Positions 13,596 to 63,893 of a DNA stretch of 64,000 nucleotides are shown piece after piece. A program made the position numbers and the translations under genes. Positions within the stretch are counted from its first letter, which is position 1. Every line of letters starts with the position of its first letter. The notes under the pieces were generated by a model that did no database searches, was not told the DNA's origin, and saw only the letters and a program-made list of their open reading frames with translations. The DNA is from Fictibacillus macauensis ZFHKF-1 (lineage in GTDB: Bacteria > Bacillota > Bacilli > Bacillales > Fictibacillaceae): assembly GCF_000269865.1 (NCBI RefSeq), contig NZ_AKKV01000042.1, positions 1 through 64,000 of the forward strand, in the 5' to 3' direction.

Positions 13596-13863
13596 GGGGT
13601 GCGCGCAGAGGTGTTTGAATCGCGGGGAGAGGGATTCGGTTCGCGCGCAGAAGGATTCGATTCGCGCGCAGGAGTGTTTGAATCGCGCGCAGAAGCATCC
13701 CGTTCGCGCGCAGGAGCATCCGATTCGCGCGCAGGAGTGCCCGATTCGCGCGCAGGAGCCCTCGATTCGCGCGCAGGAGTGCCCGATTCGCGCGCAGAAG
13801 CCCTCGATTCGCGCGCAGAGGCATCCCGTTCGCGCGCAGGAGCATCCGATTCGCGCGCAGAGG
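13596..13863. repeat. Tandem array of about 21-bp units, core TTCGCGCGCAG (array B1)
   Basis: I count twelve GCGCGCAG cores, mostly spaced 21 bases, separated by ten variable bases drawn from a few variants such as GAGCATCCGA and GAGTGCCCGA. The period is a multiple of three, so several frames on both strands stay open and give heptapeptide-repeat pseudo-ORFs. No ribosome site or coding constraint supports any of them. Confidence 0.9.
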
Positions 13864-14002
13864 AGACAAATCAAGCTCAAAAGTCAGTGGAATGGATTGA
13901 AAAAGAGAAAAATTCTGCACTGTGGCCTCAAAAGATCCAAAAATAAGATGAAATTCACCGAAACTTCCTCCTTAATCTCAAAATAAACGCAAAAAGCTAA
14001 TC
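13861..14002. repeat. Spacer of array B, copy 1
   Basis: This AT-richer segment of about 140 bases begins ACAAATCAAGCTCAAAAGTC. It is repeated with about 90 percent identity by eye at 14160-14300. Confidence 0.85.
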
Positions 14003-14158
14003 GCGCGCAGAGGCATCTCGTTCGCGCGCAGAAGCACCCGTTCGCGCGCAGGAGTGCCCGATTCGCGCGCAGAAGCATCCCGTTCGCGCGCAGGAGTGCC
14101 CGATTCGCGCGCAGAAGCATCCCGTTCGCGCGCAGAAGCCCTCGATTCGCGCGCAGGA
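14003..14158. repeat. Tandem array B2, core TTCGCGCGCAG
   Basis: Eight GCGCGCAG cores at about 21-base spacing lie between the two copies of the B spacer. Confidence 0.9.
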
Positions 14159-14159
14159 G

Positions 14160-14300
14160 AGACAAATCAAGCTCAAAAGTCAGAGGAATGAATTGAAAAA
14201 GAGAAAAATTCTGCACTGTGGCCTCAAAAGAGCCAAAAATAAGATGAAATTCACCGAAACTTCCTCCTTGATCTCAAAATAAGCGCAAGAAAAGCAATCC
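14160..14300. repeat. Spacer of array B, copy 2
   Basis: Second copy of the segment at 13861-14002, including the blocks AAAATTCTGCACTGTGGCCT and GAAATTCACCGAAACTTCCT. Confidence 0.85.
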
Positions 14301-14600
14301 CGCGTCCTCCGCCATTACCCGCGCCCCGCTCAATTCCGCGTGCCCGCTCAAATCACGCGCCTTCTCAATCATCCCGCGCCGGTGCCCTTGCCCGCGCCCC
14401 GCTCGGATCCCGCGTGCCCAGCTCAAATCACGCGCCTTCTCAATCATCCCACGCCGGTGCCCTTGCCTGCGCCGCGCTCGGATCCCGCGTGCCCAGCTCA
14501 AATCACGCACCTTCTCAATCATCCCGCGTCCTCCGCCATTACCCGCGCCCCGCTCAAATCACGCACCTTCTCAATCATCCCGCGCTGCCGCCCGCACCCG
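14300..14600. repeat. Distinct 75-bp tandem repeat
   Basis: The block CTCAAATCACGC(G/A)CCTTCTC starts at 14347, 14422, 14497 and 14552, giving periods of 75, 75 and 55 bases. A second block, CCGCCATTACCCGCGCCCCG, appears near 14310 and 14534. GC content is much higher than in flanking genes. The units share no TTCGCGCGCAG core with array B. The stretch from 14600 to 14760 is AT-rich and leads into the flhO promoter. Confidence 0.85.
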
Positions 14601-21110: not shown

Positions 21111-21262
21111 ATGAAACGTCGATTGCATTTATATTTAACAACAAAAATTGGAGAGCAAATTCCTATTGATACAGATGTGTTTGGATTTAGTAAGAAGAGA
21201 TTATAGAACATGTACTTGAATACTTGGTCTTGAATCGCAGTAAAAGAAGAAGAAACAAAAAA
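21111..21262 (+). pseudogene. Possible frameshifted small gene remnant
   Basis: From ATG 21111 the frame reads MKRRLHLYLTTKIGEQIPID and continues to GFSKKRL before a TAG at 21204. Shifting frame near 21194 continues as EEIIEHVLEYLVLNRSKRRR, which looks like the natural helical end of a short protein. No clear ribosome site is present. I do not recognise the family; this is an inference from composition only. Confidence 0.3.
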
Positions 21263-21308
21263 GACCTCAACCTCATTGTAATTAATGATAGTTGGGTCTT
21301 TTTTTGTG
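21256..21308 (-). terminator. Terminator of the rap-phr operon
   Basis: AAAAAGACC...CAAC and GTTG.GGTCTTTTTTT form a stem with A and T tracts on both sides. On the minus strand it follows the phr stop by about 40 bases. Confidence 0.8.
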
Positions 21309-21344
21309 ACTAGTATATCTGCCAATCTCTTATTTATATCTCTA

Positions 21345-21730
21345 TTAAAAAACTTCCCCGTGCTGTTCAGCAGTAGCACCCTTAGAGAAAACTTCCCCAT
21401 GTTGGTTAGTAGTAGCACCCTTAGAGAAAACTTCCCCATGTTGGTTAGTAGTAGCACCTTTAGAGAAAACTTCTCCATGTTGATTAGTAGTAGCACCTTT
21501 AGAGAAAACTTCCCCATGTTGGTTAGTAGTAGCACCTTTAGAGAAAACTTCTCCATGTTGGTTAGTAGTAGCGCCCTTAGAGAAAACTTCTCCATGTTGG
21601 TTAGTAGTAGCGCCCTTAGAGAAAACTTCCCCATGTTGGTTAGTAGTAGCGCCCTTAGAGAAAACTTCCCCATGTTGGTTAGTAGTAGCGCCCTTAGAGA
21701 AAACTTCCCCATGTTGGTTAGAAATGATTG
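21345..21730 (-). repeat. 39-bp in-frame tandem repeat inside phr
   Basis: Nine units of 39 bases differ only at a few mostly synonymous positions (for example GGC/GGT in the KGA codon and GGG/GGA in HGE). Such near identity suggests recent expansion by slippage or recombination, and copy number may vary between strains. Confidence 0.9.
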
Positions 21731-21815
21731 GACTAGCTTGTGCTGTTCCAGTAGATAGTGCTAGCGCACCAACAGTTAGTGTACAAATGCTGAGAGCAGA
21801 TAGTTTCTTTTTCAT
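21345..21815 (-). CDS. Phr-type pheromone precursor with ten tandem peptide copies
   Basis: The 156-residue product has a typical Sec signal (MKKKLSALS start, AQA-S cleavage site near residue 27) and then almost nothing but repeats. There are nine 13-residue units, NQHGEVFSKGATT (the last with ATA), and a final EQHGEVF that ends the protein. QHGEVF is invariant in all ten copies and is the C-terminus of the protein, so it is the likely mature signal, with SKGATT as linker; this is inference. The start overlaps the rap stop (ATGA), and AAGGAG lies in the end of rap. Known Phr precursors normally carry one mature peptide, which is secreted, trimmed, re-imported by Opp and inhibits the partner Rap protein. 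Confidence 0.88.
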   Translation of the reverse strand: MKKKLSALSICTLTVGALALSTGTAQASPIISNQHGEVFSKGATTNQHGEVFSKGATTNQHGEVFSKGATTNQHGEVFSKGATTNQHGEVFSKGATTNQHGEVFSKGATTNQHGEVFSKGATTNQHGEVFSKGATTNQHGEVFSKGATAEQHGEVF

Positions 21816-22900
21816 TTTAACGCTCCTTTTTCTATAATTTTTTGTTTTGCATCGTAGGCAATCTCGAAATAGTGACATGATCGCTCTTTATCCGTTTTAA
21901 GATAATAAATCGCAGCTTCTTCAGCATATTGCTGAATAAAAGCCCATAATTCTTCTTTTTCAAAGTATTGTAAGGCTTCTAACAAAGTCGATTCTGATAT
22001 CTTCGAGCGGAACATACGAAGCAAGAGTAAGTGATGTTTATATTCATCACTGCTATTTTGAGAGCAATGAATTAAACCTTCATCAATTAGTTGTTCAGCA
22101 TATTCCTTATCACCCATTTTGTAATGACTTAAAGCTAACAGATAGGCTGTTTTATGAGGGCGGAACTGATGCTGATATACTTCGCTTAAATGTCGGATCG
22201 CTGCGGGTAATAGGTTTTGCTCAGAATAGAGAAATCCAAGGTTAAAGCGAAACCAAGATACAAGCTCTTGATCGTTATGCTTTATAACAAGATCTAATCC
22301 TGAGAAAAAATGCTCTTCTGCTTGCGCGTATTCTTTTAACATGACACAAGCTAGTCCCATTATATTTTCACAGCCAGCTTTTAAAATTTCTACATTTTCA
22401 GTTTCGAACAAATCGGCCGCTTTTGATGCGCTATGTAGTGCCAATAAGGGTTGATTAATTTGATAGTAATAACCTGCCACCTTATAATAAAACTCTGCGC
22501 GATCGTCGCCTTCTTCTTCTGGTAGCTTCATAAGAAGCACTTTCGCTCTGTCGAATTGTTGATGAGCTTCATCGTAGTTTTCCAGCATCATTTCATAGAT
22601 GGCTTTAAAGAAATGATAGTAGTAGGAAAGAAAGGTTTCGGTTGCTTGTAGCGTTTCGATGGTTTCAAGTAGCTGTGATGCGACTTCCATGTTTTCCAAT
22701 AGGAGCTGGTAGCGAAATTCGAGCAGGGTGTAATACATGAACAGTGTCTTATTATGAGCGATCTCCATGGTCCGAAGCCGGTCGTCGATCTCATCCTTTA
22801 GCTGCCCGGCTTTTGTGAAGTCGCGAACGCGAATTTCAAAATACCAGTTTGAAAGTAAAGGCCAGAGTGTCTGTTCCTTGCTGAGTGTCTCAATGCCCAT
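21812..22900 (-). CDS. rap: Rap family response-regulator aspartate phosphatase / TPR pheromone receptor
   Basis: The 362-residue, all-helical product has the Rap architecture: an N-terminal three-helix bundle (with LSNWYFEIRVRDFTKAGQLK) and then tetratricopeptide repeats, such as AGYYYQINQPLLALHSASKA and FRFNLGFLYSEQNLLPAAIR, that form the Phr pocket. There is no N-terminal helix-turn-helix, which separates it from PlcR, NprR and Rgg receptors. Rap proteins dephosphorylate Spo0F or block response regulators such as ComA. The chosen ATG at 22900 follows AGGAAGGAG; the ATG at 22918 is itself part of that site. The phr gene overlaps its stop codon by four bases, the classic cassette order. Which regulator it targets cannot be told from sequence. 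Confidence 0.9.
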   Translation of the reverse strand: MGIETLSKEQTLWPLLSNWYFEIRVRDFTKAGQLKDEIDDRLRTMEIAHNKTLFMYYTLLEFRYQLLLENMEVASQLLETIETLQATETFLSYYYHFFKAIYEMMLENYDEAHQQFDRAKVLLMKLPEEEGDDRAEFYYKVAGYYYQINQPLLALHSASKAADLFETENVEILKAGCENIMGLACVMLKEYAQAEEHFFSGLDLVIKHNDQELVSWFRFNLGFLYSEQNLLPAAIRHLSEVYQHQFRPHKTAYLLALSHYKMGDKEYAEQLIDEGLIHCSQNSSDEYKHHLLLLRMFRSKISESTLLEALQYFEKEELWAFIQQYAEEAAIYYLKTDKERSCHYFEIAYDAKQKIIEKGALK

Positions 22901-23060
22901 AAGATGCTCCTTCCTCATCTTGCGATAAATAATTTAATCTAATAATAACATAATTTGGAACAAAAACTTATTGGGAAAATACATCGAAAACAGTGTCGTT
23001 ATGATGGGATAATATGTTCGGTTTTCCCAAAAATCGTATTGTTTTAGAGAAATAAATACA

Positions 23061-23098
23061 AAAAACGGGAAAATAAGGTGCTTATTTTCCCGTTTTTT
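23061..23098. terminator. Terminator downstream of the motor-like operon
   Basis: AAAACGGGAAAATAAG and CTTATTTTCCCGTTTT form a 16-base-pair perfect stem with a GTG loop, T-tailed on both strands. Confidence 0.9.
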
Positions 23099-23119: not shown

Positions 23120-23812
23120 TTAGTTGCGATCAACAATTTGTTTAAGTTTATTTTGCCATTTTTTATCATCGAGAATAATTTGAAAGGAAATGCGACGATT
23201 TTTGTGAAGAGCGGTAGCAGAGGATCCTTTGGCAATTGGTTTAAATTCACTATAGCCAGTCGCTGCTAAATATTGCGCATAAGGCATGCGACCAAGCTTC
23301 GGATTCGCCTGTGCTAAATACTTTACAACAGAAACGGCGCGTTCGGTTGAAAGCGACCAGTTATCATAAGGAACTGAATCGGTATGACCTTCAATTAAAA
23401 TAATGTAGAGAAACTTGCTCATCTCTTTTTCATCAATAATCGCAGCGAGCGCATTGGCGAGCGGTATTAACACTTTTTTTCCGGAAGCACTAACGGTGGC
23501 GCTGCCAGTGTCAAAAAGAATATTCCCTTCTAAGGAAATGGTATTGTTCGGGCCGCGGACAATTTTATCTTTGCCTACATTTTTTTCAAGCTGCTGCTGA
23601 ATTTTATCAGAAATCGTTTTTTTAACATGAGCGGCTTGCTGTAACTCGTGTTTTACTTGACGTTGATCATACGCATTATAAATGCTTTGTACATAGGCAA
23701 GGATGGCTACAAAAAGCATGATGAGCACCATCATCGACATCATGTCGGTAAAGCTCGGCCAATAAATCTCTTCGTTTACGGGATCTTCATAACGCCGTTT
23801 TCGTCCTCGCAT
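23120..23812 (-). CDS. MotB/ZorB-like OmpA-domain membrane protein
   Basis: The 230-residue product starts with a short basic cytoplasmic segment (MRGRKRRYEDP). It then has one membrane helix (about residues 20-45) carrying the conserved aspartate in WPSFTDMMSMMVLIMLF, the proton- or sodium-conducting position in MotB and ZorB. The rest is a coiled linker and a C-terminal OmpA/MotB peptidoglycan-binding domain with ILFDTGSATVS, IEGHTDSVPYDNW and HKNRRISF. The start at 23812 is set by the neighbour, whose stop lies four bases upstream. It should form an ion-driven complex with the MotA-like partner. It is not the flagellar MotB, since the partner is far larger than MotA. Confidence 0.85.
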   Translation of the reverse strand: MRGRKRRYEDPVNEEIYWPSFTDMMSMMVLIMLFVAILAYVQSIYNAYDQRQVKHELQQAAHVKKTISDKIQQQLEKNVGKDKIVRGPNNTISLEGNILFDTGSATVSASGKKVLIPLANALAAIIDEKEMSKFLYIILIEGHTDSVPYDNWSLSTERAVSVVKYLAQANPKLGRMPYAQYLAATGYSEFKPIAKGSSATALHKNRRISFQIILDDKKWQNKLKQIVDRN

Positions 23813-23816
23813 GTCC

Positions 23817-25373
23817 TCACCGCCTTCTTGGATCGGTTGGCGGAATAAGCGCCTCTGTCGTATCGCGGGCCGAATAAACAGTTTGGCGATCCATAGCAGT
23901 TTGATACATGCGCTGTAGTAAGTGATGCATATCATCAAGCGTTCGTGTAGAAGTCGATAACTCTCGTGTAATACCGTGATAAATGGTTTCTATCATTCTT
24001 GCAAGCTCGCGGCGATCATCATCGCGGTTCGTAGGTTGCTGAAGCTGGCGTTCTCGTTCCAAAATAGTTCGTAGCTGTTCGGGGAGATCGCGTTTTAACT
24101 GTTCTAGCATGTGATAGAAGCTCTTTTCTAACTGACCAACAGAAGAAGCAAAGTCATTGGCTGCGCGCCCATAATCTCCTTGTTTTTCCGCATAGCGATA
24201 ATACCATTCCTCTTGCTTTTGCTGAAGGCGACCTTCAAGTGCCTCGTGCACAGAGGAATAATGTTGCAATTGTTCTTGTGCGATCCGAAGCAGTTGTTGA
24301 CCAAATTCCTCAGAGCGCCGTCCAGCGTCAACAAGTGCTTGATCAGACCGTTTTAAGAGCATTTCGAATTTTTGTTGTCCGGCTTGCTGTTGTTCACTCA
24401 CTTTTTTAATCTGTTGTTCAAATGTAGAAATTTGTCCAGTAAGTGCGGCTACACTGCTTTCAGAAGAACGTGCAATATTCTCTTGCTTTTCGGCAGCTTC
24501 GCGAAATCGAGCGCCAAAATGTTCAAGTGCCCCAGCTGAAGCAGCGAATGAATGAGTATAGTCACGCTGTGTTTCAAAAATGGTTTTTACATCGGTGACC
24601 GATTGCTGTAAGCCTGAGGTAAGCTCTGTCAAAACAGCGCCAAAGTGACCAATCGTCGAATGAAAGCTTTCTTCAATTTTTGTGGCAAGGCGATCGAGTA
24701 AGCGTTCAACAGAGTCTTGAGGCTTCTCTTGTAACAGAAGGGTACGAAACGTATGATCCAAATACGCTTCACAATCTGTCATAATTTTTCCATGTAAATA
24801 AGAAAGTGAAGTGCCTCTGGAAAAAAAGCCGGTAGAAAGGACCGTTAACAAAAGCGCAGCGCTCACGCCAGCAATACTCGTAATAAAAGCTGTACTCATC
24901 CCTTGGAACGGTGCAGTTAAGGACGTAATAATAGAATTCATCGTCACCCCCGCTGAAGCGCCACCTCCAAGCGCAAAGAGTGTTGATTGCATAGAAAATA
25001 AGGCCATTGTTAGACCGACAAACGTTCCTAATACGCCTAATATAATTGTAAAGGACGGTAGTTGTTGCAGCAGTCGTTGAACATTTCCGACCGGAACACG
25101 CCACAACCCAACAATCACTAGTTTCTCTTTTAAATAATATTTTTCAATTAATGCTTGCGTATTGGGCTCAATACCTGAGCGCTCATGCTGACGATAGTCA
25201 TCGCACACTTTTTGAAGCCAAGGCGAATGTGGTGCTTGCAGGCGACCGGATGCTATGTCATCTAGTTCACGAAGCCATTTCCGCAAGCTGCTGCTCGTTT
25301 GTAGGTGGCCAATCATGCCAATGAAGGTAAGACAGGCGATGATTCCTACAACAATCATTGTTACTGTATCCAT
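23817..25373 (-). CDS. MotA/ExbB/ZorA-like channel protein with long coiled-coil tail
   Basis: The 518-residue product has a first membrane helix at about residues 5-22, a cytoplasmic segment, and a MotA/TolQ/ExbB core with two more helices. These contain FTIILGVLGTFVGLTMALF and TSIAGVSAALLLTVLSTGFF, the ring-forming ion channel part. Residues about 215-500 are charged and helical, with long Gln/Glu-rich coiled-coil stretches. That layout (short channel, long cytoplasmic tail, OmpA partner) is the one described for ZorA of Zorya antiphage systems and related orphan motors, and differs from flagellar MotA. No zorC, zorD or zorE lies nearby. The start is ATG at 25373 behind AAAGGAGAGGGG. It forms a two-gene operon with the ZorB-like gene. 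Confidence 0.82.
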   Translation of the reverse strand: MDTVTMIVVGIIACLTFIGMIGHLQTSSSLRKWLRELDDIASGRLQAPHSPWLQKVCDDYRQHERSGIEPNTQALIEKYYLKEKLVIVGLWRVPVGNVQRLLQQLPSFTIILGVLGTFVGLTMALFSMQSTLFALGGGASAGVTMNSIITSLTAPFQGMSTAFITSIAGVSAALLLTVLSTGFFSRGTSLSYLHGKIMTDCEAYLDHTFRTLLLQEKPQDSVERLLDRLATKIEESFHSTIGHFGAVLTELTSGLQQSVTDVKTIFETQRDYTHSFAASAGALEHFGARFREAAEKQENIARSSESSVAALTGQISTFEQQIKKVSEQQQAGQQKFEMLLKRSDQALVDAGRRSEEFGQQLLRIAQEQLQHYSSVHEALEGRLQQKQEEWYYRYAEKQGDYGRAANDFASSVGQLEKSFYHMLEQLKRDLPEQLRTILERERQLQQPTNRDDDRRELARMIETIYHGITRELSTSTRTLDDMHHLLQRMYQTAMDRQTVYSARDTTEALIPPTDPRRR

Positions 25374-25636
25374 ATGCTTGCTCCCCTCTCCTTTACATGG
25401 AAAGCATATTCGGACGCGTTCTAGGCTAGTACAAAAAAACAAGACTGGGTCTAAAGCTCTAGTATTGTTGCAAAAAAATTAAATTTATTGGCCTATTTTC
25501 AACAAAACATTACAAACTTTTTAAAATTCAATTGCGATTTCTGAATTGTAAGATTAAACTGATAAATAGGGAGTTTACAGATGCAGCCTGTAATCACCTT
25601 TTTTTAGAAAAAATATAGTGAAAAGGGGATAGCTGA

Positions 25637-28600
25637 ATGAAGAAAAAAGTCGCATTAATGACCGCGATCGCTATGACGCTTACAAGTGGTGTAGCGAGCG
25701 CGCAGGGGACATTACCATCTAAAAGTAAAATAAAAGCAGCCGGTGGCACTAAGCCAACTGGTCTTAACTTAAAGAAGCAAACGAAGGAAGAAGAGAACTA
25801 TAGTAAGAATGATACAGTTCGTGTTGTTGTAGAACTTGAGCAAAAGCCTGCCATCCAATATGCCCAAGAAAAGAACATGCGCTATAGCGCCTTAAGCGCC
25901 TCTGAAAAATCCTCTCTTAAAGAAAAAATCACAAAAGAGCAAGATACTATCAAAGAAGATATTGAAAAGAAAGACATCGCTGTAAAGTATAAAGAAAACT
26001 TTACAACGGTTATTAATGGTTTTAGTGGTGAAATGAAGTATGGTGACATTAAAGATATTAAGAAATTAGAAGGCGTAAAAGACGTACATATTTCACATGA
26101 ATATAAACGTCCAGAAACGTTTAAAGGCGCAAAGCCTGAAATGATTTATAGCAAAGATTTAATCAATGCAAAAGAAACATGGAAAGATTACGGTTATAAA
26201 GGACAAGGCGAAGTCGTTGCGGTCATCGATACAGGCATCGATTCTACACACCGTGATATGAAGCTAAGCGAAGGTACGAAAGTAAAGCTTACTTCCGGTA
26301 AAGTAGACAGCCTTAAGCAATCTAAGAAATTAAAAGGAAAATATTACACTGAAAAAGTACCTTATGGGTATAACTATGCCGATCATGATAGCGAAATCCG
26401 TGACCTTGGTCCAGGCGCAAGCATGCATGGTATGCACGTTGCAGGTACAGTTGGTGCCAATGGTGATGAAGATAACGGTGGAATTAAAGGGGTTGCGCCA
26501 GAAGCTCAACTATTAGCAATGAAAGTATTTGGTAACGATCCTGGGATGCCATCTACATTCAGCGATATTTATGTAAAAGCAATTGATGATGCGATTGCCC
26601 TTGGAGCAGACGTTATTAACATGAGTTTAGGTTCAACAGCGGCATTCGTTCGTCCGGATGAGCCTGAACAAAAAGCGATTGTTAATGCCGTAAACAATGG
26701 TATTTTATGTGCCATTTCTGCAGGTAACTCAGCGCATGCAGGTAATGGTGCTGGAAGTCCGCTTCCTTCTAATCCTGATACAGGCGTTGTTGGTTCACCG
26801 GGTCTAGCGGATAAGTCACTTCAAGTCGCTTCCTACGAAAATAGCAAGCTATCACTTGATGGTATGGGGCTTATGATTGACGGTAAAGATACAGGTACGA
26901 TTGCGTATCAAAAGCAATCTTCTCCAAACCCAATTGAAGTATTTAATAAAGAAAAGAAAGAAGTTATTTACGTTGGCGACGGTAGCCCAGATGGCTATAA
27001 AGGAAAAAGCGTTAAAGATAAAGTAGTATTTGCTGTGCGTAACGGTAGTTTCAACTATACAATGATCCAAAAAGAAGCAGAAAAGCAAGGAGCTGCGGGT
27101 CTAATCGTTCGTGGGAAAGTAGAGCATGGCGACTATGTAAACATGGCGCTTGATAACCCGAAAATTCCGCTCGTTTCACTAAGCATTGCACAAGGAAATC
27201 AGTTAGAAGGTATGGCGAAGGAAGGCAAGAAAATTGAAGTAGCATTTGAAGGAAAAGCGGTAAGTTTACCAAATCCAAATGCAGGAAAGATGTCTGACTT
27301 CACGTCTTGGGGTACAACACCAAGCCTTGATTTCAAGCCGGAAATTACAGCACCAGGTGGAAAAATCTACTCCACACTAAACGATGATAAGTACGGTGTA
27401 ATGAGTGGAACATCAATGGCTGCTCCACACGTAGCTGGCGGTGCGGCACTCGTAATGGAACGTGTTGATAAAGACTTTAACCAAAAAGGTGCCAATCGCG
27501 TAACGCTTGCGAAAAACATCTTAATGAATACATCTCGTCCACAAATGGACCAAGGATTGTTTAATAAGTCTGGAAAAACAGGCAACTTCTACTCACCACG
27601 TCGTGAGGGTGCAGGTCTTATGGACTTACATGCAGCAATGAAAACACCGGTCATCGTTACAGAAACGAAATCAGGTGAAGGAAAAGCGGCATTGAAAGAA
27701 GTAGGCGACAAATTTAGCTTTACGCTTCAATTGAAAAACTACAGCAAAAAAGATGCAGAATATAAAGTTGCTGGTAACGTTCAAACGGATCTTGCGATTG
27801 AAGGAATGAACTTACTTGAAGCAGATGGTATTTTCAAAAAAGGGACACGCGATAGCGATGATCCGAACAAAGCACAGTTCCCAATCTCCTTTATGGATGG
27901 ATCGAAGAAAGTAGATTCAGTAAAAGTGAAAGCAAATAGCACAGCGAAAGTAACAGTTTCTGTAGACTTAAAAGATACAGTTGACTGGATTAACAATGAA
28001 CCACTTAAGAAGATCTTCAAAAACGGTAACTTCGTAGAAGGATTTGTTCGTTTTGTTGACGTAAAAGGCAAAAATCCTAACTTAGCGGTTCCTTATGTTG
28101 GTTTCCACGGTAAATGGGATCAAGCACCAATTATCGATGCACCACTTTACGACCAAGATCAGTCTTTCTACAAAGCAACTGGACTTGCAACAGAAAAGGG
28201 TAGTACATTTACACACCTTGGTGAGGACGTTAAAGGTGACGTGAATAAAGATAAAGTGTCCTTCTCTCCAAATGGAGATGGATCGTATGATAAGATGTTC
28301 CCTGTTCTATCCTTCTTGCGCAACGCGAAGAATGTAGAATACTCTATTCTAGATCGCAACAAAAAGAAAGTACGTACGATTGAAACACAACAAGATGTGA
28401 TTAAAAACTACTATGATGGTGGTAAAGAGCCAGGCTACAATACTGTGACAGATGCAGCATGGGATGGCACGGTAAACGGTAAAACAGTGAAAGACGGTCT
28501 CTACTACTATGAAGTAAAAGCAGTGGTGGATTATAAAGGAGCAAAAGAACAAAAACTATTGCTACCATTCTATGTAGATACGAAGTCTCCTGAAGTGTCA

Positions 28601-29389
28601 GCTAAATGGGATAACACTAGCAAAACGGTATCTTGGAATGCAAAAGATAACGGAACAGGCGTTGCTTACACAGATATTTTAGTAGATGGCAAAAGTGTTC
28701 TTTCTAAGAAACTTGCACCATCAGAAAAAGAATACAAGCTTGAAGATGTATCAAGCAATGCAAAAATCGAAGTCGTATCTTATGACTATGCAGGAAATAC
28801 GGCTCGTTATATGGCAAACGGTAATAAAGATAAAAACGTACCAGCAGTTGATGTAGAAACGCCAAAAGCATTAACAACAACAACGTCCAAAACGGTTGAA
28901 GTAAAAGGAAGTGTTACGGACGAATCTGGTTTAAAATCATTCTCCATTGATGGAAAGCCAGCAAAAATCTCTTACGATGAAAAAACAAAGAAATATATGT
29001 TTTCACAAACGCTTACGTTTTCAAAAGATGACGTCCATGCGTTTAAAGTAGAAGCTGTTGATACGTACGGCAACCGTGTTGCATTCCGTCGTCAAGTCAT
29101 CGTTGATTCTACACAACCGACGATGAAAGTAACAGCACCGACTACAACAACAGCAAAGACTGCTACTCTTAAAGTAGCGCTTTGGGACAATTACGATGAA
29201 ATGAAGTTTTATGTAAACGATGATGCGAAATATCGTCATACATTTAAAGAGCCTTACGAAATGAGAACTCTTAAACACACGTATAGCGAAAAAGTATCAT
29301 TGAAAAAAGGTAAAAACACATTTAACTTAAAATTAGTCGATCTTGGCGGAAACATTGTTCGTAAAACCGTTACGATTACAAAAAAATAA
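25637..29389 (+). CDS. Large secreted subtilase (S8), cell-envelope proteinase type
   Basis: The 1250-residue product has a signal peptide ending near SAQ, an I9-type inhibitory propeptide (about 55-155), and a subtilisin domain with catalytic Asp198 (VIDTGIDSTH), His264 (MHGMHVAGT) and Ser593 (SGTSMAAPHVAG). A PA domain is inserted at about 420-540. A lactocepin-type Fn3-like domain (about 690-830) and several Ig-like modules follow, with repeated YTDILVDGKS and LKSFSIDGKP-type strands. It lacks an LPXTG sorting signal, so it is presumably released or held non-covalently. Vpr of B. subtilis is a shorter relative with the same front half. The start is ATG behind AAAAGGGGATAG. It is monocistronic. 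Confidence 0.9.
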   Translation: MKKKVALMTAIAMTLTSGVASAQGTLPSKSKIKAAGGTKPTGLNLKKQTKEEENYSKNDTVRVVVELEQKPAIQYAQEKNMRYSALSASEKSSLKEKITKEQDTIKEDIEKKDIAVKYKENFTTVINGFSGEMKYGDIKDIKKLEGVKDVHISHEYKRPETFKGAKPEMIYSKDLINAKETWKDYGYKGQGEVVAVIDTGIDSTHRDMKLSEGTKVKLTSGKVDSLKQSKKLKGKYYTEKVPYGYNYADHDSEIRDLGPGASMHGMHVAGTVGANGDEDNGGIKGVAPEAQLLAMKVFGNDPGMPSTFSDIYVKAIDDAIALGADVINMSLGSTAAFVRPDEPEQKAIVNAVNNGILCAISAGNSAHAGNGAGSPLPSNPDTGVVGSPGLADKSLQVASYENSKLSLDGMGLMIDGKDTGTIAYQKQSSPNPIEVFNKEKKEVIYVGDGSPDGYKGKSVKDKVVFAVRNGSFNYTMIQKEAEKQGAAGLIVRGKVEHGDYVNMALDNPKIPLVSLSIAQGNQLEGMAKEGKKIEVAFEGKAVSLPNPNAGKMSDFTSWGTTPSLDFKPEITAPGGKIYSTLNDDKYGVMSGTSMAAPHVAGGAALVMERVDKDFNQKGANRVTLAKNILMNTSRPQMDQGLFNKSGKTGNFYSPRREGAGLMDLHAAMKTPVIVTETKSGEGKAALKEVGDKFSFTLQLKNYSKKDAEYKVAGNVQTDLAIEGMNLLEADGIFKKGTRDSDDPNKAQFPISFMDGSKKVDSVKVKANSTAKVTVSVDLKDTVDWINNEPLKKIFKNGNFVEGFVRFVDVKGKNPNLAVPYVGFHGKWDQAPIIDAPLYDQDQSFYKATGLATEKGSTFTHLGEDVKGDVNKDKVSFSPNGDGSYDKMFPVLSFLRNAKNVEYSILDRNKKKVRTIETQQDVIKNYYDGGKEPGYNTVTDAAWDGTVNGKTVKDGLYYYEVKAVVDYKGAKEQKLLLPFYVDTKSPEVSAKWDNTSKTVSWNAKDNGTGVAYTDILVDGKSVLSKKLAPSEKEYKLEDVSSNAKIEVVSYDYAGNTARYMANGNKDKNVPAVDVETPKALTTTTSKTVEVKGSVTDESGLKSFSIDGKPAKISYDEKTKKYMFSQTLTFSKDDVHAFKVEAVDTYGNRVAFRRQVIVDSTQPTMKVTAPTTTTAKTATLKVALWDNYDEMKFYVNDDAKYRHTFKEPYEMRTLKHTYSEKVSLKKGKNTFNLKLVDLGGNIVRKTVTITKK

Positions 29390-29507: not shown

Positions 29508-29590
29508 GTAATCGCGCGCAGGAGCCTCCGATTCGCGCAGATCAAGTCCGTTCGCGCGCAGGAGTCCCCGATTCGCGCGCAGACCAGATA
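29508..29590. repeat. Short array of TTCGCGCGCAG units (array C)
   Basis: Four units are present (one missing a GC pair) at about 21-base spacing. The following 290 bases up to the lipoprotein start contain no gene; a stretch GAAAAATAGAGCAAAAGAAGAG resembles the tail after arrays E and F. Confidence 0.85.
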
Positions 29591-40867: not shown

Positions 40868-41012
40868 GCGCGCAGGGGGATTCGGTTCGCGCGCAGCCCA
40901 GGTCGATTCGCGCGCGGGAGCCCTTGATTCGCGCGCAGAGACCTCCGATTCGCGCGCAGGGGCGTTGATTCGCGCGCAGGGACCTCCTGTTCGCGCGCAG
41001 GGACCCTCGAAT
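40868..41012. repeat. Tandem array of TTCGCGCGCAG units (array D1)
   Basis: About seven cores at roughly 18-21-base spacing are separated by short variants such as GACCTCCGA and GAGCCCTTGA. Confidence 0.9.
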
Positions 41013-41181
41013 CGCACACAAAGACCTCCAAATCACCTGCAAAGGCCCAAATGTCAGTAAATTGTATCAAAATTTCAAAAAAAGAGCTCAGAATCACCTA
41101 AAGCACATCAAATTTACGTAAAAAGCTCCAAATACCATGCGTAAGAAGGATCGAATCAGAGGCTGGGCTCCAAATCGCAAT
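41013..41181. repeat. Spacer of array D, copy 1
   Basis: This AT-rich segment of about 165 bases includes CCTCCAAATCACC, AAAGGCCCAAATGTCAGTAA and GTAAAAAGCTCCAAATA. It is nearly identical to 41412-41580 and clearly related to 51111-51275 and 51371-51535. Confidence 0.9.
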
Positions 41182-41411
41182 TCGCGCGCAGAGACCTCCG
41201 TTCGCGCGCAGGAGCTTTCGATTCGCGCGCATGGAGCTCCGATTCGCGCGCAGAGGACCTCGGTTCGCGCGCAGGAACCCTCGGTTCGCGCGCAGAGACC
41301 TTCTGTTCGCGCGCAGAGGATCTCAGTTCGCGCGCAGGGACCCCCGATTCGCGCGCAGAGACCCTCGATTCGCGCGCAGGGACCCTCGGTTCGCGCGCAG
41401 GGGCCTTCAAA
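41181..41411. repeat. Tandem array D2, core TTCGCGCGCAG
   Basis: About eleven cores at close to 21-base spacing lie between two copies of the D spacer. Overlapping long ORFs on both strands are by-products of the period and have no ribosome sites. Confidence 0.9.
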
Positions 41412-41580
41412 TCGCACACAAGGACCTCCAAATCACCTGCAAAGGCCCAAATGTCAGTAAATCGTATCAAAATTTCAAAAAAAGAGCTCAGAATCACACG
41501 TAAAGCACATCAAATTTACGTAAAAAGCTCCAAATAACATGCGCAAGAAGGATCGAATCAGAGGCTAAGCTCCAAATCGC
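41412..41580. repeat. Spacer of array D, copy 2
   Basis: Second copy of the 41013-41181 segment, with only scattered differences by eye. Confidence 0.9.
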
Positions 41581-41790
41581 AATTCGCGCGCAGAGACCTC
41601 AATTCGCGCGCAGGAGCCTCTGATTCGCGCACAGCCCAGCTCGAATCGCGCGCAGAATCCCGCGAATCGCGCACAGAGGACCTCGATTCGCGCGCAGCCC
41701 AGCGCGAATCCTACGCACACCAGCCCAATTCCGCGCACAAGACCACCCGAATACGCCACAAAACAGAGGGAATAGTGTGTCCTAACTCCT
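41580..41790. repeat. Array D3 and conserved right end
   Basis: About six decayed units are followed by a tail with ACGCCACAAAACAGAGGGAA and TAGTGTGTCC. The tail matches 183-213 at the start of the window (ACGCTACGAAACAGAAGGAA), which suggests a defined element end. Confidence 0.8.
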
Positions 41791-50929: not shown

Positions 50930-51110
50930 AGTTGGATCGCGATCAGGAGTGGTCGGATCGAGCGCAGAGACCCTCGATTCGCGAGCAGGGACCTCCTGTT
51001 CGCGCGCAGAGACCTCCGATTCGCGCGCAGAGACCCCCGGTTCGCGCGCAGGAGCCTTCGATTCGCGCGCAGAGACCTCCTGTTCGCGCGCAGGGACCTT
51101 TAATTCACAC
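50930..51110. repeat. Tandem array of TTCGCGCGCAG units (array E1)
   Basis: About eight units at 21-base spacing; the left ones are decayed (GGATCGCGATCAGGAG, TCGAGCGCAGAG). Variants GACCTCCTGTTCGCG and GACCTCCGATTCGCG alternate. The stretch 50800-50930 shows no gene. Confidence 0.9.
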
Positions 51111-51275
51111 GCAGTGACCTCCAAATCACCTTCAAAGGCCCGGATGTCGAGTATATCGTATTGAAATTTCAAAAAAGAACTCTAAATTACACATAAAGTA
51201 CATCAAATTCAAGTAAAAAGCTCCAAATAACATGTGGGAGAAGGACCGAATTAGAGGCTAAGCTCCGAATCGCGA
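51111..51275. repeat. Spacer of array E, copy 1
   Basis: It contains CCTCCAAATCACCTTCAAAG and GTAAAAAGCTCCAAATAACA and is related along its length to the spacers of array D, 10 kb away. Confidence 0.88.
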
Positions 51276-51370
51276 TTCGCGCGCAGGCGCACTCCGTTCG
51301 CGCGCAGGGACCTCCTGTTCGCGCGCAGGGACCTCCGATTCGCGCGCAGGGACCTTCAATTCACACGCAG
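51275..51370. repeat. Tandem array E2, core TTCGCGCGCAG
   Basis: Four cores and one decayed unit lie between two copies of the E spacer. Confidence 0.88.
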
Positions 51371-51562
51371 AGACCTCCCAATCACCTTCAAAGGCCCGGA
51401 TGTCGAGTACATCGTATCAAAATTTCAAAAAAAGAGCTCAAAATTACGCATAAAGCACATCAAATTCACGTAAAAAGCTCCAAATAACATGTGGAAGAAG
51501 GACCGAATTAGAGGCTAAGCTCCGAATCGCGATTCGCGCGCAGGCGCACTCAGTTCACGCGC
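51371..51562. repeat. Spacer of array E, copy 2, and last units
   Basis: Second copy of the E spacer, followed by GATTCGCGCGCAGGCGCACT and one decayed unit. The following bases to 51640 contain AAAAAGAGAGCAAATC, also seen after array F. Confidence 0.85.
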
Positions 51563-56360: not shown

Positions 56361-56541
56361 GCGCTTTAAAATCCGGTACGCACGGGGGGCGGCTACCCAC
56401 ACCAAAAAGGGTGACGAGAATAGTATGCAATATGAATAATGCCAAAGAATGTTTGTAAAAGAGATAAAGGACAGACAGGCGTCTAAGAACAAAGTGATTC
56501 TTTGGTTATTCTCCGATCAATTTTATAGTAGGAGGTTAATA

Positions 56542-58071
56542 ATGAGTAATTCGAAAAAAAAATCAAAATCGCATGATTATAGAAAAGATCGTCATGCTAG
56601 CAAATCACACCGTAAACACAGAAAAAGTAAAGAAAGAACGAAAGAAGCATCGAAAACATATTGTTCAAATACGAAGTGGGAATATTACAAACCAGCCAAA
56701 ACAGACTACGGTTGTGGAGGATATAGTAGTAAGTGCAAAACCATCGTAGATTCTGGTGGAGAAAGCTACAATGGGTCGTATGGTGAAAATGGGCGGTACC
56801 AGGCAGAGGATGAGCAGTCAGGTGGTCATCATGTTGCGTCACATGACGATGATTGGGCTAAGCGTTTATATGGAAATCACATGAATGCTACGACTCATCA
56901 AGAAGTTAATGCTGGAGAACAGTGGGAAACCGATCCAAGAGCTTTCACTGGCGATGAATGGGGAGGCGACACGTCCTTTAGCACTGGTGAGTGGAACGGA
57001 GGCAAAACCTTTGTCGGTGACGAATGGGACGGAGGCACATCCTTTAGCGGAGGCGAGTGGGATGGCGGCCAAACCATTGGCAGAGACGAATGGGGAGGCG
57101 ACACATCCTTTAGCGGAGGCGATTGGGACGGAGGCAAAACCTTTGTCGGTGACGAATGGGATGGCGGCACATCCTTTAGCGGAGGCGATTGGGACGGAGG
57201 CAAAACCTTTGTCGGTGACGAATGGGATGGCGGCACATCCTTTAGCGGAGGCGAATGGAATGGAGGCAAAACCTTTGTCGGTGACGAATGGGGAGGCGGC
57301 CAAACCATCGGCAGAGACGAGTGGGGAGGCGACACGTCCTTTAGCACTGGCGAGTGGGACGGAGGCAAAACCATTGGCAGAGACGAGTGGGGAGGCGACA
57401 CGTCCTTTAGCACTGGCGAATGGGACGGTGGCCAAACCATCGGCAGAGACGAGTGGGGAGGCGACACGTCCTTTAGCACTGGCGAGTGGGACGGCGGCCA
57501 AACCATTGGTGGAGACGAATGGGGAGGCGACACGTCTTTAAGCACTGGCGAGTGGGACGGCGGCCAAACCATCGGCGGAGACGAATGGGGAGGCGACACG
57601 TCCTATAGCACTGGCGAACGGGAAGGAGACTCATCGTATACAGGTGATGAATGGTCGTATTCAAAAGGTGAAACGTACAAAAGGAAACAAGGCGGACCAA
57701 AATATGGTGGCCAATTTTATAAATCAGGTTCTCGCAAGACATCTAATGAGTCTCTCTTAAAAAGAGCGCATGAGTTCGACGATCGTGCGTATAAAGCGTT
57801 AAAAGAGGCTGCTAGTTATCAAGAAGAGGGAATAGAGTTAGCAAGAAAATACGTTAATCTTGAGTATAAAAACAAACCAAATAGTGATTCGTATTGCTTG
57901 AAGGCCTATGAAGACGTACGCAAGCTGATTGCTCAAGTAGACCGTGATCGTACGGATGCTCTTAAAGAGATGCAATCAGCGCTAAAAGAACTAGATCGTG
58001 CATATCGCAATGATCAACGGTTAGAACAAGCGAAAAGAAAGTACGACCGTTGTCAAAATAAAAAATACTAA
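56542..58071 (+). CDS. Large repeat protein with DEW-type 22-residue tandem repeats
   Basis: The 509-residue product has three parts. Residues 1 to about 70 are very basic (Lys, Arg, His, Ser-rich) with a few Cys (TYCSN, YGCGGYSSKC). Residues about 137-370 are roughly ten copies of a 22-residue unit of the form (G/R)DEWGGDTSFSTGEWDGGQTI, itself two 11-residue halves each with an EW/DW-x-GG core. The last 130 residues are charged and predicted helical (ARKYVNLEYKNK, LKEMQSALKELDRAYR). There is no signal peptide. I do not recognise it. The basic head, Gly/Trp/Asp repeats and Cys suggest a spore-coat or surface structural protein, which is inference. The start follows a strong TAGGAGG. Alternative ORFs in other frames are artefacts of the repeat. 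Confidence 0.75.
   Translation: MSNSKKKSKSHDYRKDRHASKSHRKHRKSKERTKEASKTYCSNTKWEYYKPAKTDYGCGGYSSKCKTIVDSGGESYNGSYGENGRYQAEDEQSGGHHVASHDDDWAKRLYGNHMNATTHQEVNAGEQWETDPRAFTGDEWGGDTSFSTGEWNGGKTFVGDEWDGGTSFSGGEWDGGQTIGRDEWGGDTSFSGGDWDGGKTFVGDEWDGGTSFSGGDWDGGKTFVGDEWDGGTSFSGGEWNGGKTFVGDEWGGGQTIGRDEWGGDTSFSTGEWDGGKTIGRDEWGGDTSFSTGEWDGGQTIGRDEWGGDTSFSTGEWDGGQTIGGDEWGGDTSLSTGEWDGGQTIGGDEWGGDTSYSTGEREGDSSYTGDEWSYSKGETYKRKQGGPKYGGQFYKSGSRKTSNESLLKRAHEFDDRAYKALKEAASYQEEGIELARKYVNLEYKNKPNSDSYCLKAYEDVRKLIAQVDRDRTDALKEMQSALKELDRAYRNDQRLEQAKRKYDRCQNKKY
56950..57655 (+). repeat. 66-bp coding tandem repeat (33-bp half units)
   Basis: GGAGGCGACACGTCCTTTAG and related blocks recur at multiples of 33 bases. Blocks are shuffled, and one half unit is missing near 57290, which points to recombination within the array. 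Confidence 0.85.
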
Positions 58072-63559: not shown

Positions 63560-63893
63560 TAGTTCGCGCACTGGAGTACCTGATTCGCGCACAGGAGCAT
63601 TTGATTCGCGCTCAGAAGCATTCGTTCGCGCTGGGGCACGCGTTCGCGCGCAGGAGCACTCGGTTCACGCGCAAGGGAATCCGATTCGCGCTGGGGCACG
63701 CGTTCGCGCGCAGGAGCACTCGGTTCACGCGCAAGGGAATCCGATTCGCGCTGGGGCAAGCGTTCGCGCGCAGGAGCACTCGGTTCGCGCGCAGGAGCAC
63801 TCGATTCGCGCGCAGAAGTACTTGATTCGCGCGCAGAAGCACCTGATTCGCGCGCAGAAGCATCCGATTCGCGCGCAGGCAAGGCAAATGGAC
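63560..63893. repeat. Tandem array of TTCGCGCGCAG units with a 60-bp higher-order repeat (array F)
   Basis: Blocks starting at 63631, 63691 and 63751 (TCGCGCTGGGGCA and on through CGGTTCACGCGCAAGGGAAT) repeat with an exact 60-base period. At the right, 21-base units GATTCGCGCGCAGAAG follow. The tail to 64000 shows AAAAAGAGAGCAAATT, as after array E, and no gene. Confidence 0.9.

Follow-up and report, generated by a model that had tools for sequence, protein, structure and literature searches.

A probable Rap-Phr quorum-sensing cassette whose precursor carries ten copies of one candidate pheromone

The window examined here, a 64,000-nucleotide stretch of the Fictibacillus macauensis ZFHKF-1 genome, contains a Rap-type receptor gene followed by the gene for a secreted peptide precursor in which the hexapeptide QHGEVF occurs ten times (Table 1). 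The ten-copy precursor and its Rap-type neighbor are real features of the sequence. The whole explanation proposed here, that the two genes make up a quorum-sensing cassette of the Rap-Phr type in which the pheromone has been amplified, is one that we hold with good confidence. A sequence-only reading of this DNA had already assigned the pair to the Rap-Phr class, and the assignment was upheld by HG-type pheromones encoded at the same place in relatives, by their common C-terminal register, and by a change in the receptor pocket.

Table 1. Features of the rap-phr region (positions in the window)
Feature	Position	Strand	Remarks
rap (RRNPPA receptor)	21812..22918	-	longest frame 368 aa; probable true start 22900 (362 aa)
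phr, secreted pheromone precursor, 156 aa	21345..21815	-	ATGA overlap with rap; position common to relatives' Phr precursors
Sec-type signal peptide MKKKLSALSICTLTVGALALSTGTAQA	21735..21815	-	by eye and crude hydropathy rule; cut likely after AQA
Pheromone array: ten QHGEVF, in nine 39-nt units NQHGEVFSKGAT(T/A) and a last EQHGEVF	21348..21719	-	
Ribosome-binding site AAAGGAG of phr, within rap 3' end	21823..21829	-	sequence inspection
Hairpin with U-rich 3' arm, ~40 bases after phr stop	21255..21307	-	possible intrinsic terminator
Terminator-like hairpin between MotB-like gene and rap	23060..23098	-	consensus scan; weak alone

The precursor gene is a small ORF directly downstream of rap, and the two frames share an ATGA at 21812-21815, as the sequence-only reading had stated. 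The rap frame ends in GCGTTAAAATGA, the ATG of which is the phr start, and AAAGGAG sits 7 bases before it. Translation of 21345-21827 (minus strand) gave MKKKLSALSICTLTVGALALSTGTAQA-SPIIS-(NQHGEVFSKGATT)x8-NQHGEVFSKGATA-EQHGEVF-stop, with a Sec signal peptide recognized by inspection and a simple hydropathy rule. The translation confirmed that QHGEVF is invariant in all ten copies and forms the last residues of the protein. Nine units had been described as identical; nine are present, but the ninth ends in A and the other eight in T. Weak Pfam and NCBIfam matches of the precursor fell below the cut-offs and were taken as chance.

The sequence around the cassette was searched for transcription signals. 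The hairpin downstream of phr folded stably (21235-21320, minus strand; -21 kcal/mol, z -3.69, with 0/200 shuffles as good) and was not listed by the consensus terminator scan. Terminator-like sites numbered 2 against 1.2 expected. No sigma-70-like promoter was found before rap on its strand; of seven sites, one was on the minus strand, and it lay after phr. A sigma-H promoter in or before rap was rejected, as the best score (13/15) equaled the median best score of 200 shuffles. Directly upstream of rap, at 23120-25382 (minus), is a MotA/MotB-like gene pair, which matched ZorB1 (9.5e-35) and ZorA2 (2e-11) in a PADLOC scan that covered only this pair and Rap. A mobile element was likewise rejected. 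The cassette DNA had no match in plasmids, the unit pattern had none in viral contigs, and at the protein level the matches, in 245 plasmid and 28 phage records, were all below 60% identity.

The receptor combines a RapH_N three-helix bundle (Pfam 5e-14, 52.5 bits with a cut-off of 27) with TPR repeats (TPR_12, 2.1e-7), and no DNA-binding HTH family appeared among its 12 Pfam rows. In NCBIfam no family scored above cut-off. Nine distinct Rap sequences from the PDB matched the protein. RapH was best (2.6e-25); the others were 6t3h (an unnamed Rap), RapI, Rap3T, RapF (three), Rap105 and RapJ. Eight of the matches ran from about residue 20 to beyond residue 350; that of Rap105 covered only 20-270. 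Met7, encoded at 22900, is invariant in ten aligned Raps and is preceded by GGAAGGAG, so translation probably starts there rather than at 22918.

Relatives were surveyed in six other genomes of the genus and in 34 genomes of the family, 22/34 of which had a Rap at E 1e-40 or better. The six genus genomes contain two other Rap groups. One (L010-L015) is accompanied by single-copy EHGVIRD precursors that start at the ATGA junction. For the second (L004-L009), as for its members elsewhere in the family (L019, L020, L032), no convincing Phr was found; short ORFs of L006 and L009 passed the crude signal rule but look spurious and were discarded. The nearest Raps are those of Fictibacillus nanhaiensis (L016/L067) and F. 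phosphorivorans (L017/L082), with 49% and 46% identity. Each is followed by one MKK...GHGETF precursor at the same -4 (ATGA) junction, with the same pheromone core as the window. These precursors hold one copy with a C-terminal tail, whereas the window precursor holds ten. The flanks of the two Raps (up to 3 kb) had no match to the window's neighbors. The next two Raps, from F. gelatini, gave two GHGETL and one EHGETW. In a maximum-likelihood tree of 36 Raps, the window Rap grouped with the two GHGETF Raps (support 100/98).

QHGEVF shares the C-terminal register x-H-G-x-x-hydrophobic with EHGETW, GHGETL, EHGEQI, EHGKMI and GHGQGI. The EHGVIRD, EHGRTF, DHGSGR and THGSIP precursors differ after HG or have a tail, and for this reason we infer the exact mature ends. 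Nine related viral contigs were also found, four with EHGDHGG, AHGDHGG or EHGDGGG at the C-terminus, three with NRGDTW, and two with several mixed units. The HG core extends to the B. cereus group, where PhrI (YAHGKDI) and PhrF1 (YTHGEPWG, even HGE) contain it; these two and the BXA0205 GHTGG peptide are single copy as printed in PMC4147580. HG-type relatives at the same place, the common C-terminal register and a corresponding change in the pocket of the receptor together make it very probable that QHGEVF is the pheromone.

Other searches for relatives were less productive. Scans of genome and viral contigs with the single protein found none, probably because this method reaches close relatives only. 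Four neighbors of the cassette, including an S8 protease, were absent from the ~0.6-4 kb flanks available at 14 loci with Raps of relatives, and synteny therefore lends no support. The QHGEVF DNA pattern matched 391/397 genomes of the order searched, mostly once, presumably within CTP synthase, and was uninformative as a search for relatives. In the literature text that could be searched, HGEVF matched only in one paper, on CTP synthase. The six-residue identity between Phr and CTP synthase was treated as coincidence.

The pocket change concerns one of two contacts described for RapF, in which Asp194 holds the conserved Arg2 of Phr and Asn227 holds the peptide backbone (PMC3601957). The Asn is retained as Asn226 in the window Rap; it does not vary in two alignments, one of 10 Raps and one of 26, and its column is N in 164/191 Raps. 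The Asp194 column holds Met193 instead of the acidic residue that goes with an Arg2-type peptide in B. subtilis-group pairs. Among 191 aligned Rap ORFs, Asp or Glu was present in this column in 3/39 Raps with an HG-type precursor compared with 108/116 Raps with another precursor, where pairing was made per ORF and the HG class was defined by a simple text match to HG or HDG beyond residue 20. Raps without a recognized Phr had Asp or Glu in 26/36 cases. Of the three exceptions among the HG rows, two may not have HG as the pheromone, since SRNAT stands at the end of L189 and KHEH is repeated in L203. L064, with THGSIP, is as far as seen a real exception. Fisher's test on the contrast gave p 5.7e-24, a value that overstates independence because the HG Raps mostly form one clade in the tree and the contrast is largely one clade-level difference. 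What the numbers show is a strong difference between classes and not 39 events that happened independently. In the HG rows 11 different non-acidic residues occupy this column, as would fit the loss of a salt bridge. Loss of the acidic residue marks the HG subclass and not the whole Rap family. An HG pheromone together with a missing Arg-anchoring Asp thus suggests a simple sequence rule for receptor-peptide pairing in this branch.

To place the ten copies in context, pheromone copies were counted behind other Raps. The survey drew on the genus and family searches, on an order-wide RapH_N search, and on viral, phage and named contigs. The order-wide search matched 121/397 genomes (86 over cut-off), from which 30 and then 115 further loci were taken, leaving aside some short or broken frames among those listed and every unlisted match. 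The 213 Rap-profile ORFs obtained represent 191 different sequences. Genomes with numerous Raps contribute disproportionately, and a few entries are not Raps in the strict sense. One of these is an HTH-bearing, NprR-like gene of the same genome as the window (L002, G000:C5:59636-60697; HTH by eye, TPR), which is followed by a small signal-peptide-like ORF. Copy number was taken as the highest count that any 5-mer reached, tolerating one mismatch, in the closest signal-like ORF downstream. No such ORF was present for 36 Raps. One copy was counted for 123, two for 20, three for seven, and four, five, six, nine and ten for one Rap each, the last being the window. The two-copy rows include at least two artefacts (L003 and L166 look spurious), and loose pseudo-repeats such as that of L090 went uncounted. 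The phages phi105 and phi3T, used as controls, came out as two, as published.

Ten is therefore the maximum among the 191 Rap ORFs. The principle of multi-copy Phr precursors is already published, and the interest of this case comes from how long and how uniform the array is. Internal repeats, some identical and some varied, have been reported (Even-Tov 2016, PMC5199041), up to six copies were found in a study in which 5/311 large Rap precursors had repeats (Felipe-Ruiz 2022, PMC9765709), and up to eight copies are mentioned elsewhere (Felipe-Ruiz 2024, PMC11343458). Ten copies extend that stated maximum relative to our survey and to the published main texts, whose figures and supplements may hold more. 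Among the literature matches listed, no paper joined Fictibacillus, Rap, Phr and quorum sensing. Phr105 of phage phi105 resembles the window precursor in having identical pheromone copies in one precursor behind rap; it differs in having two copies of ERPVGT, an Arg/Pro-type peptide, with a 4-aa spacer (PMC11343458). Unlike the window Rap, Rap105 retains the Asp anchor in the Asp194 column of our alignment. PhrI1 of Bacillus thuringiensis 407 also has tandem identical units with IGDTGGAPARPDYVN in a 96-aa precursor, but the peptide is another one and three to four units appear in the printed part of the table (PMC4147580, Table 2).

The sequence-only reading had also proposed a search for other multi-copy Phr precursors, and the survey yielded several. 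The longest is L111, from a genome of the same bacterial family (G029), in which nine HDGIIKDS units (167-508) lie behind a distant Rap. Its 39-bp period is that of the window, but the core is AHDGIIKDS, the spacers alternate, there is a 78-bp superunit, and the Rap is 29.5% identical to the window's. With a different core and so distant a Rap, this array presumably arose separately. In three further Rap-associated precursors (L225, L235, L229) the GKHDFHQ units number three to six, and their spacers alternate.

The length of the window precursor raises the alternative that it is a long secreted or wall-associated repeat protein and no source of pheromone. At 156 aa it is long for a Phr, and the strict level of RRNPP_detector admits only 10-100 aa (PMC10075063); 100-aa length filters of this kind would miss such precursors. 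But no wall-anchor motif is visible by eye, the position and start are those of relatives' Phr genes, and a second long array (the nine copies of L111) stands behind another Rap of the same family. The Phr position and the single-copy relatives make a wall-retained structural protein unlikely, and we give the repeat-protein alternative very little weight.

Tandem Repeats Finder reported a period of 39 bp with 9.6 copies, 95% matches, 0% indels and a score of 634 at 21349-21721, and the array is far beyond chance. The nine full units are 90-100% identical in pairwise comparisons (mean 95%) and units 1-3 are identical, so the array looks young. In the QHGEVF core 4/18 nucleotide columns vary over the ten copies, and all four changes are third-position synonymous. 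For the commonest core, 10/54 possible single changes and 6/18 transitions are synonymous, and the chance that four transitions are all synonymous without constraint is ~1 in 81 (one third to the fourth power). In the six-residue spacer, 2/3 variable columns are synonymous. The signal of selection on the core is modest and comes from four columns.

A young array could also mean that only the C-terminal copy functions, the other nine being neutral products of slippage or unequal exchange that are degraded. The near identity of the units agrees with this, as does the single copy found for 123/191 surveyed Raps. In its codons (CAG, CAC, TTT) the terminal copy has also diverged further than any other, which would be expected if it is the oldest. 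Against it, QHGEVF is kept in 10/10 copies while four columns vary synonymously. Synthetic fragments of Phr105 and Phr3T with internal copies were processed to active peptide, those of Phr105 by B. subtilis supernatant proteases including WprA (PMC11343458). In addition, many HG-type relatives have a tail after their sole copy (EHGRTFSLSQKL and the like), so C-terminal trimming seems normal in the HG group. We consider it rather unlikely that the nine internal copies are without function.

In the explanation proposed here, the amplified cassette would work as follows. Translation of rap and of the phr precursor would be coupled, and the precursor would be exported by Sec and cut by signal peptidase after AQA. 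Extracellular proteases, probably subtilases, would trim it to QHGEVF or to a form extended slightly at the N-terminus. One cut would free the last copy, and each of the nine internal copies would need one cut before Q and one after F. Cleavage after Phe suits subtilases, for which 11 Peptidase_S8 matches were obtained in the genome. A secreted S8 subtilase of 1250 aa is encoded within the window at 25637-29389 (plus; Peptidase_S8 5.8e-52, fn3_5 6.6e-18) and is a possible Phr-processing enzyme. We do not claim this link because the gene is absent from the ~0.6-4 kb flanks of relatives' Raps and the genome offers so many Peptidase_S8 matches. Once imported, QHGEVF would bind the TPR pocket of Rap and relieve its hold on a response regulator. 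We infer release, import, binding, the direction of the effect and its target. The array, as a tandem amplification of one ancestral HG-type pheromone, would increase the ratio of signal to receptor by up to tenfold for each operon translated.

Gain and copy-number tunability, both raised by the sequence-only reading, are treated here as hypotheses. Unequal exchange between near-identical 39-bp units might quickly alter how many pheromones each precursor holds, such that lineages differ in signal-to-receptor ratio while signal identity is unchanged. We regard such an evolvable gain control as a speculative and somewhat improbable role for the array. Were it correct, L111, with its nine copies and 39-bp period behind a distantly related Rap from this family, would count as another case that arose independently. 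The copy number of the 373-bp array was read from a 55-contig draft assembly (3.74 Mb), and no second strain of the species was found. Since all ten copies are identical, nature here supplies a clean test of whether quorum-sensing gain is set by the number of pheromone copies.

The output of the receptor may differ from the classical one. The residue aligned with Gln47 of RapH is Lys57, so we felt that the window Rap should not be filed as a Spo0F phosphatase and that a phosphatase output is doubtful. Gln is found here in all Raps known to dephosphorylate Spo0F, Gln or Glu appears to be required, and catalytically dead RapH still blocks Spo0F (PMC3035606). The window Rap may therefore act by steric blocking of Spo0F or another response regulator and not by Spo0F dephosphorylation, a reading compatible with the amplified cassette and to which we assign an even chance. 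In that case a process other than sporulation may be what the amplified signal tunes. The two sister Raps have Ser and Pro in this column, F. gelatini and other relatives keep Gln, and over the survey the column is Gln in 115/191 Raps and Glu in 12. The alignment with RapH, however, has a 2-residue gap near Lys57, and Rap3T has His in this column of our alignment yet represses sporulation (PMC11343458). Possible targets are also numerous, with 27 receiver-domain matches in the genome, among them a protein 78% identical to B. subtilis Spo0F.

Two other kinds of repeat were seen in the window. Arrays of a 21-bp TCGCGCGCAG-type repeat occur in five places (13601-14304, 29512-29582, 40868-41710, 50958-51378 and 63563-63879). 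A 540-aa ORF at 56449-58071 (plus) has a long region of 11/22-aa repeats (EWDGGKTFVGDEWDGGTSFSGG and variants) encoded by 33/66-bp DNA repeats.
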